DNA from: Jiangella alba
Lineage (GTDB): Bacteria; Actinomycetota; Actinomycetes; Jiangellales; Jiangellaceae
DNA: 64,000 nucleotides
Reading direction: 5' to 3'
Assembly: GCF_900106035.1 (NCBI RefSeq)
Contig: NZ_FNUC01000001.1
Location: 124,001 to 188,000 of the forward strand
Shown: piece by piece, positions 20,688 to 56,800 of the stretch
Layout of the letters: each line of letters opens with the position of its first letter
Numbering within the stretch: the stretch's first letter is position 1
The notes under the pieces: model-generated
What the model was told of the DNA's origin: nothing
What the model saw: the letters and a program-made list of their open reading frames with translations, nothing else
Database searches by the model: none
Position numbers and translations under genes: made by a program

Positions 20688-22705
20688 GGCACCAGCCGGT
20701 GCAGCACCGCGCCCTTCGACAGGTACAGCGCGCCGTCGTCGCCCAGCACGACGGCCGACACGCCCGACGTCACCGTGGTGACGGCGCCGGTCGACGGGTC
20801 CGCGCGCAACAGTTGACCACCCACGACGGCATACACGGTGCCGTCCATCAACACGACGAGACGTTGACCCTCGGACCAGACATGATCAACGTTGATCCAG
20901 TCTTCGGCCGGCACCGCGATCTCCCGCACCACCTGCCGCGTCGACGGGTCCAGCTCGAACAGCCGGCCCAGGGTGAGGCCCCACAGCGTCCCGGACGGCG
21001 ACACCGCCAGCTCCGTGACCGCGGGCAGCCCGGGGTACGGCGTCACCTCCCACAGCTTCGTCCGCGTCACCGGGTCGTACGCGAACACCCGGCCGTCGTC
21101 GTCCGGCGGGACGATGCCCAGGCCGGCCCACTTGGACGTGCTCGCGTAGACGACGTCGCCGATCGCGACCGCGGACACGACGCTGCCGGTCCCGGCCACG
21201 CCGCGGTCCACCGAGACGGATCCCGTCGCCGGGTCGTAGACGCTGATCGCGCCGGTCAGCTGGCCGTAGTTCGGCACCGTCCCGATGACGACGCGGCCGG
21301 CCGCCGACGCCAGCGCCATCGGCCGGTCCTGCCCCTGCGCCGCCAGGTTCGCGACGGGGCCGGGGTTGCTGCCCCACGCGAACGGCTCGGACGGCCGGTA
21401 GCGCAGCACCGTCCCCGCCGGGTACGTCCCGAGGTACAGGTCGGAGCCGACCCGCAGCATCTCGTCGGTCTGCCCGACGGTGCCGCGCGGCACCTGCGCC
21501 AGCTCACCGGTCGCCGGGTCGTACGACGAGAGCCCGCCGGAGCCGAGCCCGCCGGCCCAGACCCGGCCGTCCGGCCCGACCCCGAGCGAACGGATGTGTA
21601 CCGGCTCGCCGGTGATCTCCAGCTGGTCGACGCGCGACTGGCCGGTGCGCGGGTTGTGCACCCAGAGCCGGCCGATGTAGTCGGTCATCACCAGCGACTC
21701 GCCCGGGTATCCGGGCTCGTCCAGGTCGATCCAGGCGAACCCGCGCGACGTGAACATCGACGGGAACGCCCCGGTCTCGCGGGTCCGTCCGGTCAGCGTG
21801 CTGAACGCGTTCAGCCGGCCGTTCGTACCGACGAAGTAGACCTCCTTGCGCATCGGCGCGACGGGTGACACGTCCAGACCGCCGGCCGGCCCGAGCGGCG
21901 CCAGCCACGTCCGAGCGCGCAGGTCGTAGCGGAGCATCGTCCGCGACGCCGTCAGGTGCACGTAGGCGATGTCGCTGCGGACGGTGACCTGGTTGACCTC
22001 GTGCTCGGCGTCGTAGGGCGGCGGCAGCGCGATGTCGGTGACGGCGCCGGAGCCGATGTCGACGCGGACCAGCCGCGCCTTCTGCGTGCCCAGTCCGGCG
22101 TAGACGGCGTCGCCCCAGACGACGACGCTGCGCAGGTACTGGGAGTCGGGCGAGAGGTTGCCGTAGTCGCGGAAGGTCCCGTCGTCCGGGTCGTACGCGA
22201 ACAGCTGGCCGGTCGGGTAGCCGCCGAAGAACACGGTCCCGTCCGGGTGGATGCCCAGCCCGTACAGGTACGTGACGGCGCTCGACGGGCGGCCGACGTC
22301 GGTCAGGGTGTCCGTCGCGTAGTCGTAGGAGTAGAGGCGGCCCTGCTGGAAGGTCGCGATGTACAGGGTGCCGTCGGGCGCGACCGCGAGGTCGCGCGAG
22401 CCGATCGCGCCGGGCAGCCGCACCGACCGGATGGATCGGCGTTCGCGCACGTCGATGACGTGCAGGCTGGTGGTGCCGGAGCCGAGCAGCACGGTGTAGA
22501 TCACCGGCGTGCCGTCGGGCAGTGTGCCGTAGGCGACCTTGTCGATGGCGACGTTGGTGATGGGGGTGCCGACCTCGGTGAGGCCGGCGGCGGGAGCGGC
22601 GGGAGCGGCGGGGGCGACCGGAGCGGCCGGGGCGCTCGCCGCGCCGCCGGCCACGAGGGCGACGGCGGCGGCGAACGTCAGGACCCGGCGGGCGAGACGT
22701 GGCAT
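20684..22705 (-). CDS. Secreted beta-propeller protein (NHL/PQQ-like repeats)
   Basis: 673 residues. Sec signal peptide (MPRLARRVLTFAAAVALVAGGAASAPAAPV..., cleavage near 30) with an Ala/Pro linker, then many WD/NHL-like blades containing GPDGRVWAGG-, PDGTLYIATF- and SPSGTLWGLT-type strands; at least seven blades. No catalytic residues recognised; such proteins bind or cleave extracellular polysaccharide or act as lyase-like streptogramin-type propellers. Start ATG at 22705, 20 bp after the beta-helix stop. Second gene of the GntR-controlled operon. Confidence 0.78.
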   Translation of the reverse strand: MPRLARRVLTFAAAVALVAGGAASAPAAPVAPAAPAAPAAGLTEVGTPITNVAIDKVAYGTLPDGTPVIYTVLLGSGTTSLHVIDVRERRSIRSVRLPGAIGSRDLAVAPDGTLYIATFQQGRLYSYDYATDTLTDVGRPSSAVTYLYGLGIHPDGTVFFGGYPTGQLFAYDPDDGTFRDYGNLSPDSQYLRSVVVWGDAVYAGLGTQKARLVRVDIGSGAVTDIALPPPYDAEHEVNQVTVRSDIAYVHLTASRTMLRYDLRARTWLAPLGPAGGLDVSPVAPMRKEVYFVGTNGRLNAFSTLTGRTRETGAFPSMFTSRGFAWIDLDEPGYPGESLVMTDYIGRLWVHNPRTGQSRVDQLEITGEPVHIRSLGVGPDGRVWAGGLGSGGLSSYDPATGELAQVPRGTVGQTDEMLRVGSDLYLGTYPAGTVLRYRPSEPFAWGSNPGPVANLAAQGQDRPMALASAAGRVVIGTVPNYGQLTGAISVYDPATGSVSVDRGVAGTGSVVSAVAIGDVVYASTSKWAGLGIVPPDDDGRVFAYDPVTRTKLWEVTPYPGLPAVTELAVSPSGTLWGLTLGRLFELDPSTRQVVREIAVPAEDWINVDHVWSEGQRLVVLMDGTVYAVVGGQLLRADPSTGAVTTVTSGVSAVVLGDDGALYLSKGAVLHRLVP

Positions 22706-53387: not shown

Positions 53388-53816
53388 TCAGTAACCGCGC
53401 ACCCGGGTGGGCGTGACGCGGACGATGGCGGAGTAGTCGCCGAGGAACTCGTCGCGGGTGATGCCGACCAGCTCCATGGTGGCGTGGTACTTGGCGACGT
53501 AGCGGTCGGCCTCGGCGCCGGTCAGCGGCCCCGCCTCGACGACGGCGTCGCCCTCGACGGTGACCACGCCGCCGGAGGTCTGCGCGGTGCGGTCGAGCTC
53601 GAGGTGCAGCGAGACCCGGGCGTTGCCGGCCAGATTGCGGACCTTCCCCGCGCCGGGCCGGCTGAGCAGGGTGAACCGGACGCCGTCCCAGAGGAACCCG
53701 ACCGGCGACGTCTGCGGCTGCCCGTCGGCGCGCACCGTCGTGATCCAGATCTCCTCCTCGGCGCCGAAGCGGCGCAGCGCGGTCTCGGTGGCGGCGTCGT
53801 CCAGTCCCGGCAGCAT
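53388..53816 (-). CDS. Pyridoxamine 5'-phosphate oxidase-like flavoprotein (Rv3369 type)
   Basis: 142 residues of split-barrel flavin reductase: EEIWITTVRADGQPQTSPVGFLWDG and FTLLSRPGAGKVRNLAGNARVSLHL. Such actinobacterial proteins often bind F420 or FMN. Length matches the TIGR03667-type group. Followed (upstream) by the metQNI leader region. Confidence 0.85.
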   Translation of the reverse strand: MLPGLDDAATETALRRFGAEEEIWITTVRADGQPQTSPVGFLWDGVRFTLLSRPGAGKVRNLAGNARVSLHLELDRTAQTSGGVVTVEGDAVVEAGPLTGAEADRYVAKYHATMELVGITRDEFLGDYSAIVRVTPTRVRGY

Positions 53817-53892
53817 CGCGATCCCTTCGTCGAGTGATGGCGATCACAGCGCAGCATCGGCGCAACGTATTCCGCGTGGGACGACACGTGGC

Positions 53893-53935
53893 CCGTCTCA
53901 CATTCTGGCTGAATTGTGACCACGATGCGAGACGG
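53893..53935. promoter_or_regulatory. Dyad element in the metQNI upstream region
   Basis: CCGTCTCACA (53893-53902) and TGCGAGACGG (53926-53935) form an inverted repeat with one mismatch around a 23-nt centre that itself contains TTCTGGCTGAA. It lies in the 400-bp region before metQ and upstream of the short leader ORF, so it may be the operator or promoter region of the methionine-import operon. Confidence 0.35.
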
Positions 53936-53983
53936 CAGCGTTCTCGGTTTGGAGACCGCTGGCCCGATCGGGAAGATGGACGC

Positions 53984-54079
53984 ATGTCTCGCGCTTCGTC
54001 CGACACCGCCCGGATCGTGACCACGGCCACCGGCCGCGGCATGTCCCTGTGTCCGATGCGAATGCGCTGCTGCCGCTGA
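53984..54079 (+). CDS. Candidate Met/Cys-rich leader peptide of metQNI
   Basis: 31 codons ending GRGMSLCPMRMRCCR-stop: three Met and three Cys in the last 12 residues. It stops 147 nt before metQ. Short ORFs with runs of the regulated amino acid next to transport or biosynthesis genes usually mediate ribosome-dependent attenuation. Start ATG has only a weak GGGAAG site; an internal GTG or ATG could serve. I see no clear terminator hairpin, so the mechanism is uncertain. An alternative larger ORF from 53834 in the same frame is less convincing. Confidence 0.45.
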   Translation: MSRASSDTARIVTTATGRGMSLCPMRMRCCR

Positions 54080-54225
54080 CGCGCTTCTGACGTCACCTTC
54101 GCGGCACCTCCCCCACCGGAGCCGGCCCGGCCACCCAGCCGCGCCCATCCGGCGGCCTCCACGCGCCACCCCGCGCCCATCCCGCGCCCGACCCGGGCCA
54201 CCCGCACCAAGGAGACACGCACGCC

Positions 54226-55110
54226 ATGAACCGCCGCATCGCCCTGCCCGTCGCGTTCGCCGCAGCCGCCGCCGTCCTGGCCGCCTGCGGCGGGGGCGAC
54301 TCCGAGACCGCGTCCGGTGAGTCCGGCGACCCGATCCGCATCGGCGTGGTCGGCGCCAGCGAGGACTACTGGACCGCCTTCACCGAGCTGACCGAGGAGG
54401 AGGGCATCGACGTCGAGCTGGTGAACTTCACCGACTACACGCAGCCCAACCCGGCGCTGTCGCAGGGCCAGCTCGACCTCAACCAGTTCCAGCACCTGCA
54501 GTACCTGGCCGCCTACAACGTGGCGAACGACGACGACCTGGCGCCGATCGGTGCGACGGCGATCTACCCGCTCGGCCTGTACTCCCAGAAGCACCAGTCG
54601 CTGGAGGACATCCCCGAGGGCGGCGAGGTCGCGATCCCGAACGACGAGACCAACCAGGCCCGCGCGCTGCTCGTCCTGCAGGACGCCGGCCTGATCACGC
54701 TCGAGGGCGGCGGCAGCTCGACGTCGCTGCCGTCGGACGTCGTCGAGGCGGAGTCGCGGGTCAGCGTCACGCCGGTCGCGGCCGAGCAGACGGCGACGGC
54801 GCTGAACAGCGTCGACGCGTCCGTGATCAACAACGACTTCGTCGCCGACGCGGGGCTGGAGCCCACGGACGCGCTGTACCAGGACCAGGCCGACAGCCCG
54901 GGCGCCCGCCCGTACATCAACGTGTGGGTCGCGCGGTCCGACGAGGTCGACAACGAGACCTTCCAGCGGCTGGTGGAGCTGTACCACTCGCCGGAGGTGG
55001 AGGCGGCGTCGTCGGAGGCGTCCGGCGGGACGGCGGTGTTCACCGACAACCCGTCCGACGAGCTGTCGGAGATCCTCGGCGGCATCCAGACGGACCTCGC
55101 CGCGCACTGA
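54226..55110 (+). CDS. metQ: Methionine ABC transporter substrate-binding lipoprotein MetQ
   Basis: 294 residues. Lipobox LAAC (Cys21), then NlpA/MetQ fold: IRIGVVGASEDYWTAFTELTEEEGIDVELVNFTDY, ALSQGQLDLNQFQH, YPLGLYSQKHQSLEDIPEGGEVAIPND. Captures D/L-methionine. AAGGAGACACGCACGCC precedes the ATG. Operon metQ-metN-metI with 1-4 bp overlaps. Confidence 0.95.
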   Translation: MNRRIALPVAFAAAAAVLAACGGGDSETASGESGDPIRIGVVGASEDYWTAFTELTEEEGIDVELVNFTDYTQPNPALSQGQLDLNQFQHLQYLAAYNVANDDDLAPIGATAIYPLGLYSQKHQSLEDIPEGGEVAIPNDETNQARALLVLQDAGLITLEGGGSSTSLPSDVVEAESRVSVTPVAAEQTATALNSVDASVINNDFVADAGLEPTDALYQDQADSPGARPYINVWVARSDEVDNETFQRLVELYHSPEVEAASSEASGGTAVFTDNPSDELSEILGGIQTDLAAH

Positions 55111-56141
55111 TGGCACCGCTGATCAGCTTCCAGGACGTCAGCAAGGTCTTCGGCGCCGGAGACCGGGCCGTCCGCGCCGTCGACGGCGTGACGCTGGACA
55201 TCGAGGCCGGCGAGATCTTCGGCGTCATCGGCTACTCCGGCGCCGGCAAGAGCACGCTGGTCCGGCTGGTCAACGCGCTGGAGACGGTGACGTCCGGCCG
55301 CCTGCTCGTCGACGGGCAGGACGTCACCGCGCTCCGCGAGGCCGAGCTGCGGCGGGTGCGGGCCGGCATCGGGATGGTGTTCCAGCAGTTCAATCTGCTG
55401 AACTCGCGCACCGTCGCCGGCAACGTCGGGTACCCGCTGAAAGTGGCCGGCTGGCCGCGCGACAAGCGGGCGGCCCGCGTCGCCGAACTGCTCGACTACG
55501 TCGGCATCGCCGACAAGGCGAAGTCGTACCCGCGGCAGCTGTCCGGCGGCCAGAAGCAGCGCGTGGGCATCGCCCGGGCGCTGGCGACGTCGCCGCGGAT
55601 CCTGCTCGCCGACGAGGCCACCAGCGCGCTCGACCCCGACACCACGCAGGACGTGCTCGCCCTGCTGCGCCGGGTGAACCGCGAGCTGGGCGTCACCGTC
55701 GTCGTCATCACGCACGAGATGGACGTGATCCGCTCGCTCGCCCACCGGGTCGCCGTCATGGAGGCCGGGAAGGTGATCGAGCACGGCCCGGTCTACGACG
55801 TGTTCGCCGCGCCGCGCGAGCGGGCCACCCGCCGGTTCGTCGCGACGACGCTGAAGGACCGCCCGACGCCGGAGGCGGTGGAGCGGCTGCGGCACCGGCA
55901 CCCGGGCCGCATCGTCAGCGTCGGCATCCGTGAGTCCGGCGTCGACGTCACCGCGGCGCTGCGGGCGCACGGCGTCGACGGCACCATCGTGTTCGGCGGC
56001 ATCACCGAGATCGACGAGCGGCCGTTCGGCTCGCTGACGCTGGAGCTGACCGGCGCCGACGCGGCGATCGAGGCGCTGCTCGCCGACCTGCGCTCCCGGA
56101 CCGACGTGGACGACCTGGGCACGGCGGGGGTGCGGGCGTGA
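55110..56141 (+). CDS. metN: Methionine ABC transporter ATP-binding protein MetN
   Basis: 343 residues. Walker A GYSGAGKST, signature LSGGQKQR, Walker B ILLADEATSALD, switch His ITHEMD; then a C-terminal NIL domain (from about 265: GRIVSVGIRESGVDVTAALRAHGVDGTIVFGGITEI), the methionine-sensing regulatory domain that inhibits transport when methionine is high. ATG shares the last base of the metQ TGA. Confidence 0.96.
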   Translation: MAPLISFQDVSKVFGAGDRAVRAVDGVTLDIEAGEIFGVIGYSGAGKSTLVRLVNALETVTSGRLLVDGQDVTALREAELRRVRAGIGMVFQQFNLLNSRTVAGNVGYPLKVAGWPRDKRAARVAELLDYVGIADKAKSYPRQLSGGQKQRVGIARALATSPRILLADEATSALDPDTTQDVLALLRRVNRELGVTVVVITHEMDVIRSLAHRVAVMEAGKVIEHGPVYDVFAAPRERATRRFVATTLKDRPTPEAVERLRHRHPGRIVSVGIRESGVDVTAALRAHGVDGTIVFGGITEIDERPFGSLTLELTGADAAIEALLADLRSRTDVDDLGTAGVRA

Positions 56142-56800
56142 ACCGCGACTGGTCGGAGCTGTCGCCGATCCTGTGGGAGTCGGTGCGCGAGACGCTGTAC
56201 ATCGTCGGCGTGACGGTGGGCGTCGGCGGCGCGCTGGGGCTGGTGCTGGGCGTGCTGCTGTACGCGACGCGGCGCGGCAACCTGCTGCAGAACGTCGTCG
56301 TCTTCACGGTGCTGAACGTCGCCGTCAATGTGGTGCGGCCGATCCCGTTCATCATCTTCATCACCGCGGTCGGCCCCGTGACGCTGGCCGTCGTCGGCAC
56401 CACCATCGGCAACGACGCCGTCATCTTCGCGATGGCGATCATGGCGACGTTCGTGACCGCGCGCATCGTCGAGCAGAACCTCGTGGCCACCGACCCGGGC
56501 GTCATCGAGGCGGCCCGCGCGATGGGCGCGTCGCGGCTGCGGATCCTGGTGACGGTGCTGGTGCCGGAGGCGCTCGCGCCGCTGATCCTCGGCTACACCT
56601 TCCTCCTCATCGGCATCGTCGACATGTCGGCCCTGGCCGGCTACGTGGGCGGCGGCGGGCTGGGCAACTTCGCCATCGTGTACGGCTACCAGCGGTTCAA
56701 CTGGGAGGTCACGCTGGTGACCGTGCTGGTGATCATCGGGATGGTGCAGCTGGCGCAGTTGCTGGGGAACTGGCTGGCGCGCAAGGCGCTGCACCGCTGA
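56138..56800 (+). CDS. metI: Methionine ABC transporter permease MetI
   Basis: 220 residues with five or six predicted helices and the EAA loop GVIEAARAMGASRLRILVTVLVPEA. GTG start overlaps metN by ATGA-type coupling (GTGA). Ends 1 bp before the convergent ViuB gene. Confidence 0.95.
   Translation: MNRDWSELSPILWESVRETLYIVGVTVGVGGALGLVLGVLLYATRRGNLLQNVVVFTVLNVAVNVVRPIPFIIFITAVGPVTLAVVGTTIGNDAVIFAMAIMATFVTARIVEQNLVATDPGVIEAARAMGASRLRILVTVLVPEALAPLILGYTFLLIGIVDMSALAGYVGGGGLGNFAIVYGYQRFNWEVTLVTVLVIIGMVQLAQLLGNWLARKALHR

Follow-up and report, generated by a model that had tools for sequence, protein, structure and literature searches.

SAM riboswitches control methionine genes, and poly-Cys attenuators of mycobacteria are reportedly the subject of work by Canestrari et al. 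in 2020. The described system closest to the locus reported here is metL of Streptomyces lividans TK24, a 29-residue leader peptide (MSTTSDRTPATEATTTPGARCMCRRMCAF) that ends in CMCRRMCAF and lies upstream of metNIQ. It is listed in Table 4 of the source as a leaderless attenuator annotated from RNA-seq, with termination unclear, and the entry records no typical Rho-independent terminator (PMC8079986). Cys leaders have been predicted in mycobacteria, with no conserved RNA structures seen before methionine operons (PMC1262725), and Cys-rich mycobacterial small ORFs are reported to show ribosome occupancy (PMC4633059). The first of these papers also recounts that changes to the regulatory codons of the Streptomyces coelicolor ilvB leader had no effect; actinobacterial leaders therefore need not act classically (PMC1262725). 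Among the open-licence literature matches listed, no title concerned a Jiangella met leader or the CGA-AUG feature described below.

The window analysed here, a stretch of 64,000 nucleotides, is part of a 7.68 Mb Jiangella genome. As the original prediction had described, it contains a 31-codon ORF on the plus strand (53984-54079, ATG to TGA) encoding the 31-residue peptide MSRASSDTARIVTTATGRGMSLCPMRMRCCR. The ORF lies between metQ and a divergent PPOX-class F420-dependent oxidoreductase gene (53388-53816, minus strand), the product of which scores under the cut-offs of its family. The last nucleotide of the leader stop is 54079 and the first of metQ is 54226, which leaves 146 nt between the two. 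The operon itself lies on the plus strand in the order metQ-metN-metI with overlapping stop and start codons: metQ (54226-55110) encodes a MetQ/NlpA-type substrate-binding lipoprotein (PF03180 NlpA lipoprotein, E 3e-68), metN (55110-56141) an ABC ATPase with ABC_tran and NIL domain matches, and metI (56138-56800) a permease by domain search. MetQ is up to 96% identical to its counterparts in named relatives. These matches support the proposed methionine transport operon in part, but each of the three products scores under the cut-off of its NCBIfam model (MetQ, MetN or MetI); methionine import is thus the likely, not the certain, function.

The last codons of the ORF and its stop (54041-54079, plus strand) make up a Met/Cys-rich tail containing the putative regulatory codons. 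Six of the last 12 residues are Met or Cys, a number unique among the 426 ORFs of 8-60 codons on both strands of the window (the runner-up has four), and the concentration of these codons to which attention had been drawn is therefore the most extreme among the small ORFs surveyed. A convincing second copy of the leader was not found in the same genome, where the next profile match (E 0.03) fell inside a 388-codon open frame. By its sequence, this leader is a real and conserved member of the kind already known from S. lividans metL. As with metL, a Met/Cys tail precedes a met importer and no intrinsic terminator was found (PMC8079986). The importer genes are ordered metNIQ in S. lividans and metQNI in Jiangella, and neither the peptide nor the RNA fold of metL can be confidently aligned with the Jiangella leader. 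Mycobacterial Cys leaders, as published, share with it a short ORF, sulfur amino acid codons near the stop and the lack of an obvious terminator; those leaders have Cys runs before sulfur genes, whereas the Jiangella tail mixes Met and Cys before a Met importer (PMC1262725, PMC4633059). At most two Cys codons are adjacent in Jiangella leaders, with no poly-Cys run.

Twelve Jiangella genomes yielded ten usable loci, the eleventh locus being cut by a contig end and the twelfth genome lacking a full-length MetQ. That genome (G006, 5.6 Mb, locus L012) is the only one of the 12 without a full-length MetQ of the metQNI type, its best match covering 50 residues at E 6e-4. The leader ORF stood in frame before metQ in 10/10 loci having upstream DNA. 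The peptides begin MSRASSD and end with the Met/Cys tail in the pattern M..CxMRMRxC[RH], with one exception (L007, MSMCPRMRRCRCC). Their lengths of 31, 32 and 34 residues reflect in-frame differences only, unlike the stretch after the stop, which carries gaps of any length. At six other Jiangellaceae loci the leader has diverged further, one peptide ending GMSMCGTSMRRCCM, and five of these six peptides recur in contigs named Phytoactinopolyspora. The comparison of peptide ends that the original prediction called for thus came out in its favour, as the Met/Cys tail is kept in frame and similar tails precede the same operon in other lineages.

The wider distribution was examined in three samples. 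A class-wide sample gave a MetQ match in 106/296 genomes; about 115 non-Jiangella matches were listed, and 79 loci were examined (19 returned directly and 60 fetched). At these loci a small ORF was counted if it lay no more than 700 nt before the first met gene and had at least four Met/Cys, both kinds being present, in its last 12 residues; such tails occurred at 29/79 on the sense strand against 1/79 antisense (Fisher p 3e-9). Among 80 named MetQ loci the counts were 20/80 and 0/80, with 11 of the 20 being Jiangellaceae already counted; the remaining nine comprised two Cellulomonas, four Sanguibacter, one Oerskovia, one Antribacter and one Isoptericola MAG. A later sample from family f17 (MetI in 77 of 150 genomes, 59 of the 77 not sampled earlier; 43 loci taken and one dropped for want of metN) gave 17/42 sense and 0/42 antisense. 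No such leader was found, at the thresholds used, at 50/79, 60/80 and 25/42 loci, respectively, including every Bifidobacterium locus among the named ones. All 21 Streptomycetaceae metNIQ loci examined have a leader of the type M..TS..T.ATEA..TPGARC.., of which 16 pass the Met/Cys threshold. Streptomyces species differ in the stop codon that ends the leader, TAG or TGA, but not in its position. Judged from these comparisons, Met/Cys leaders are a recurrent class before met importers in several actinobacterial families.

These observations bear on the idea that the ORF is a chance reading frame, devoid of leader function, in a conserved promoter region. The DNA upstream of the ATG is likewise strongly conserved in Jiangella, and the silent-site test confined to that genus is not decisive (3/12 fourfold sites vary in the leader vs 76/141 in the comparison, p 0.07). 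However, the in-frame length differences, the recurrence in other families and the near absence of such ORFs from the antisense strand make a chance frame very improbable. We favour instead, with a probability of roughly 0.72, the reading in which the ORF would be a translated regulatory leader peptide of metQNI, with ribosomes that stall at the Met and Cys codons of the tail sensing sulfur amino acids.

A regularity at the codon level emerged when the tail codons were tabulated, as the Arg codon preceding a tail ATG is often CGA (CGA-ATG at 54059-54064, plus strand, in the window). CGA accounts for 0/56 Arg codons in metQNI. Across 148 loci, counting in-frame dicodons with a stop no more than 16 codons on and no more than 450 nt from the operon, CGA-ATG was found near the leader end at 40/148 on the sense strand and 0/148 antisense, two of the 40 (L138 and L184, Bifidobacterium) having no Met/Cys tail and looking like chance. 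Corresponding sense/antisense counts were 10/4 for CGC-ATG, 0/12 for CGG-ATG, 3/2 for CGT-ATG, 0/2 for AGG-ATG and 1/3 for AGA-ATG. Within 62 tabulated leaders CGA made up 48/69 Arg codons before ATG vs 5/246 other Arg codons, a figure with some circularity, since CGAATG itself had led to the detection or retention of 15 of the 62. Restricting the count to lineages that were found independently of the motif and whose tail includes Arg-Met left CGA in 9/11, where the lineages are our own grouping and tails without Arg-Met, such as those of Cellulomonas and three Sanguibacter loci, are excluded. In the later f17 sample of 42 loci, sense and antisense counts were 12 and 0 for CGA-ATG, 7 and 0 for CGC-ATG, and 2 and 0 for CGG-ATG; of the 17 leaders that Met/Cys content picked out in this sample, 8 contain CGA-ATG. 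The dicodon is shared by the Jiangella leader and the Streptomyces relatives examined, and is absent from the six other Jiangellaceae loci, Cellulomonas, three of four Sanguibacter loci and the group L079/L080/L107.

Decoding offers one account of this preference. The tRNA-Arg anticodons among the 46 tRNA genes read in this genome are ACG, CCG, CCT and TCT; a TCG anticodon was not present among the 46, and a 47th Rfam match yielded no tRNA. The ACG anticodon carries inosine and is the reader of the Arg codon CGA. In a published his-leader assay, CGA caused stalling and was poorly read (PMC4046918). We infer that CGA could sensitise the reading of the AUG that follows it. A stronger version, in which CGA-AUG is a dedicated sensing dicodon of actinobacterial met-importer leaders, with inosine-read CGA in the P site slowing AUG and the leader thereby registering a fall in elongator Met-tRNA, is tentative and on balance doubtful. 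Alternatively, CGA-ATG may be kept for RNA pairing or some other reason at the nucleotide level and not for decoding speed, a view to which we give somewhat under even odds. In the predicted fold of most Jiangella leaders CGAA does pair with UUCG of the 5' arm, but elsewhere the hexamer has other pairing partners, pairs weakly or does not pair, depending on the lineage, and all 48 of its occurrences in the 62 tabulated leaders, which were partly selected by frame, were in frame. Because the pairing partner is not common to the lineages, retention of CGA solely for pairing is disfavoured, and a constraint on the codon is preferred, if not proven.

The predicted fold is a hairpin inside the ORF (53991-54067, plus strand), obtained with RNAalifold from 16 Jiangellaceae leaders, in which the tail codons lie in the 3' arm. 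Paired cells amounted to 93.8% vs 88.7% in shuffles, compensatory cells to 14 vs 4.2 +/- 1.5 and the covariation score to 0.200 vs 0.118, each value being reached by 0/500 shuffles; the score was at most 0.065 when the structure was slid. The five double-change pairs were matched by 50/500 shuffles and the further pair types by 16/500. All of these values come from the alignment on which the hairpin was predicted, and relatedness among the sequences can inflate compensatory counts. Most leaders folded unremarkably as single sequences (z -0.7 to -3.0, 10 sequences). Compared with random synonymous recodings that follow Jiangella codon usage, the leaders were in most cases the less stable, and when the synonymous codons of each ORF were permuted among themselves the fractions were 0.013-0.457. 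As the evidence from folding energy is weak, the claim of structure rests on covariation. A further possible hairpin, spanning the end of the leader ORF with its stop codon (54071-54106, plus strand), was predicted in most of the ten Jiangella sequences, in which its covariation was not above shuffles (72/500).

In 21 Streptomyces-type leaders a different fold was obtained, comprising three stems and a hairpin after the stop (CTCGCGCCCCGAAGCGAG), with 98.5% of cells paired. Its four double-change pairs and its covariation score (0.037 vs 0.025) were each reached by 0/500 shuffles, while the number of pair types was not above shuffles in these 21 leaders. The metL leader ORF of Streptomyces (L058:2264-2393 and relatives) thus has the features of a structured RNA with near-fixed silent sites, 1/11 fourfold sites varying in the leaders vs 40/47 in metN (p 4e-6; 14 of 17 Streptomyces metN starts used). 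A covariance model of this fold (R1) matched 36/296 genomes at E<=0.05, of which 27 Streptomycetaceae and one genome of f17 (G241) scored at E 4e-5 or better and eight were weak. It gave no match in the genome of the window (G000), and the weak matches in two other Jiangella genomes lay away from metQ.

Such structures raise the question of whether the RNA, and not the ribosome, is the switch. An undescribed riboswitch that merely contains an ORF and responds to a metabolite would account for the hairpins with compensatory changes in both Jiangellaceae and Streptomyces-type leaders, for the near-fixed fourfold sites of the latter, and for one Streptomycetaceae leader (L224) in which, by inspection, Arg replaces a tail Cys while pairing is kept. 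We nevertheless regard it as improbable: frame and stop survive indels and changes of stop codon, the folds differ among lineages while the Met/Cys codons recur, and Rfam families are not represented. The window had no Rfam match at gathering scores and the region 53820-54300 none at E<=5, in agreement with the original view that a SAM riboswitch is lacking, and ten loci that were also scanned gave nothing except two matches in another part of L134, a tRNA and a small SRP RNA; the Streptomyces metL leader RNA likewise had no Rfam family match in the loci scanned. In this respect the Jiangella leader region differs from those governed by SAM riboswitches. An ARAGORN call of a 93-nt tRNA-Gln at 21504-21596 (minus strand) is probably a false positive, as it has no support from the Rfam scan or the genome tRNA search.

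A second possibility is that ribosomes are arrested by the nascent peptide in the exit tunnel, and not by the reading of its codons, with SAM, Met or a metal as the conceivable signal. The peptide is strongly conserved within Jiangella and within Streptomyces, and metals could bind tails rich in Met and Cys. However, what the lineages have in common is Met/Cys content and often CGA-ATG but no spacing of residues, and the conservation in Streptomyces largely extends to silent sites, so that a peptide sensor, too, has little probability. The reading of Met and Cys codons by the ribosome remains our preferred explanation of the tail.

How ribosome position might be passed on to metQNI was considered from the flanking sequences. 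Promoter-like boxes, TTGGAG-17-GAAGAT (53949-53977, plus strand), end 6 nt before the leader ATG; GAAGAT-6-ATG is present in 10/10 Jiangella loci and TTGGAG 17 nt further upstream in 9/10, and by inspection CATGAT lies 7 nt ahead of the ATG in three of the six other Jiangellaceae loci. metL is listed as leaderless (PMC8079986). In Jiangella the transcript would probably be leaderless too, starting at the ATG, although a consensus promoter scanner made no call on these boxes. Between the -35 and -10 boxes a palindrome-like GACC-NNN-GGYC (53954-53964) is, by inspection, kept in several Jiangellaceae loci. Upstream of the promoter, the Jiangella alignment contains a recognisable inverted repeat, TCTCACAT-N21-ATGYGAGA (53896-53932), a possible operator for some regulator. 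It was dropped as a regulon marker, as every other site in the genome has 3 mismatches or more. In Streptomyces loci (L058 and most of those aligned), a palindrome CTGTCCG..CGGACAG lies upstream of the metL promoter region, about 100 nt before the leader.

Downstream of the leader, no intrinsic terminator (hairpin and U run) was found in 53800-54300. Like classical his/trp-type attenuators, the Jiangella leader has regulatory codons in a leader ORF and RNA hairpins; unlike them, it lacks an intrinsic terminator, and the 3' arm of its ORF hairpin is built from the tail codons. Past the stop comes a tract (54080-54210, plus strand) that is C-rich and G-poor and resembles a Rho site. Its C minus G is at or above the 99.9th percentile of the window's 130-nt windows in 10/10 Jiangella loci, at the 96th-99.8th percentile in 17 Streptomyces loci and at the 40th-92nd in the six other Jiangellaceae loci, where the tract is not present. 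Because only some lineages have it, the tract would fit Rho loading in those lineages only. The metQ Shine-Dalgarno sequence AAGGAG (54209-54214, plus strand) is invariant across the Jiangella alignment, and its modelled accessibility was 0.29-0.50 in every state in 10/10 Jiangella loci; blocking of this site by the leader RNA is thus not supported. RNAalifold also suggested that the tail pairs at long range with the start of metQ, which was rejected because 82-100% of coding-region windows paired at least as well with the tail in the ten Jiangella loci. The proposal of ribosome-mediated attenuation therefore stands as regards the conserved Met/Cys tail and the lack of a riboswitch, and falls short at the output, for which no intrinsic terminator was predicted and the modelled switches at the metQ ribosome-binding site found no support.

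Taken together, a working model can be outlined. Transcription would start at the leader ATG. With ample charged Met-tRNA and Cys-tRNA, ribosomes would traverse the tail, the hairpins would re-form and metQNI expression would be low. When sulfur amino acids are scarce, ribosomes would stall within the tail, possibly at the point where the slowly read CGA occupies the P site and AUG the A site, so that the hairpins would stay open and metQNI would be expressed. For the output step, altered Rho access to the C-rich tract is our first guess and control of metQ translation our second.

In summary, one annotated case, S. lividans metL, is extended to a recurrent class of leaders in several actinobacterial families, and the regularity of CGA-ATG at the codon level, along with hairpins inside the ORF that show compensatory changes, is what is added beyond the metL kind already known. 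CGA-AUG amounts to a prediction at the level of codons that can be tested with reporters. If it is true, these leaders would be a natural and recurrent case in which a poor codon pair determines how sensitive an attenuator is, and the effect of CGA, if real, would mean that evolution has employed a slow codon pair to tune the amino acid sensing of a leader.
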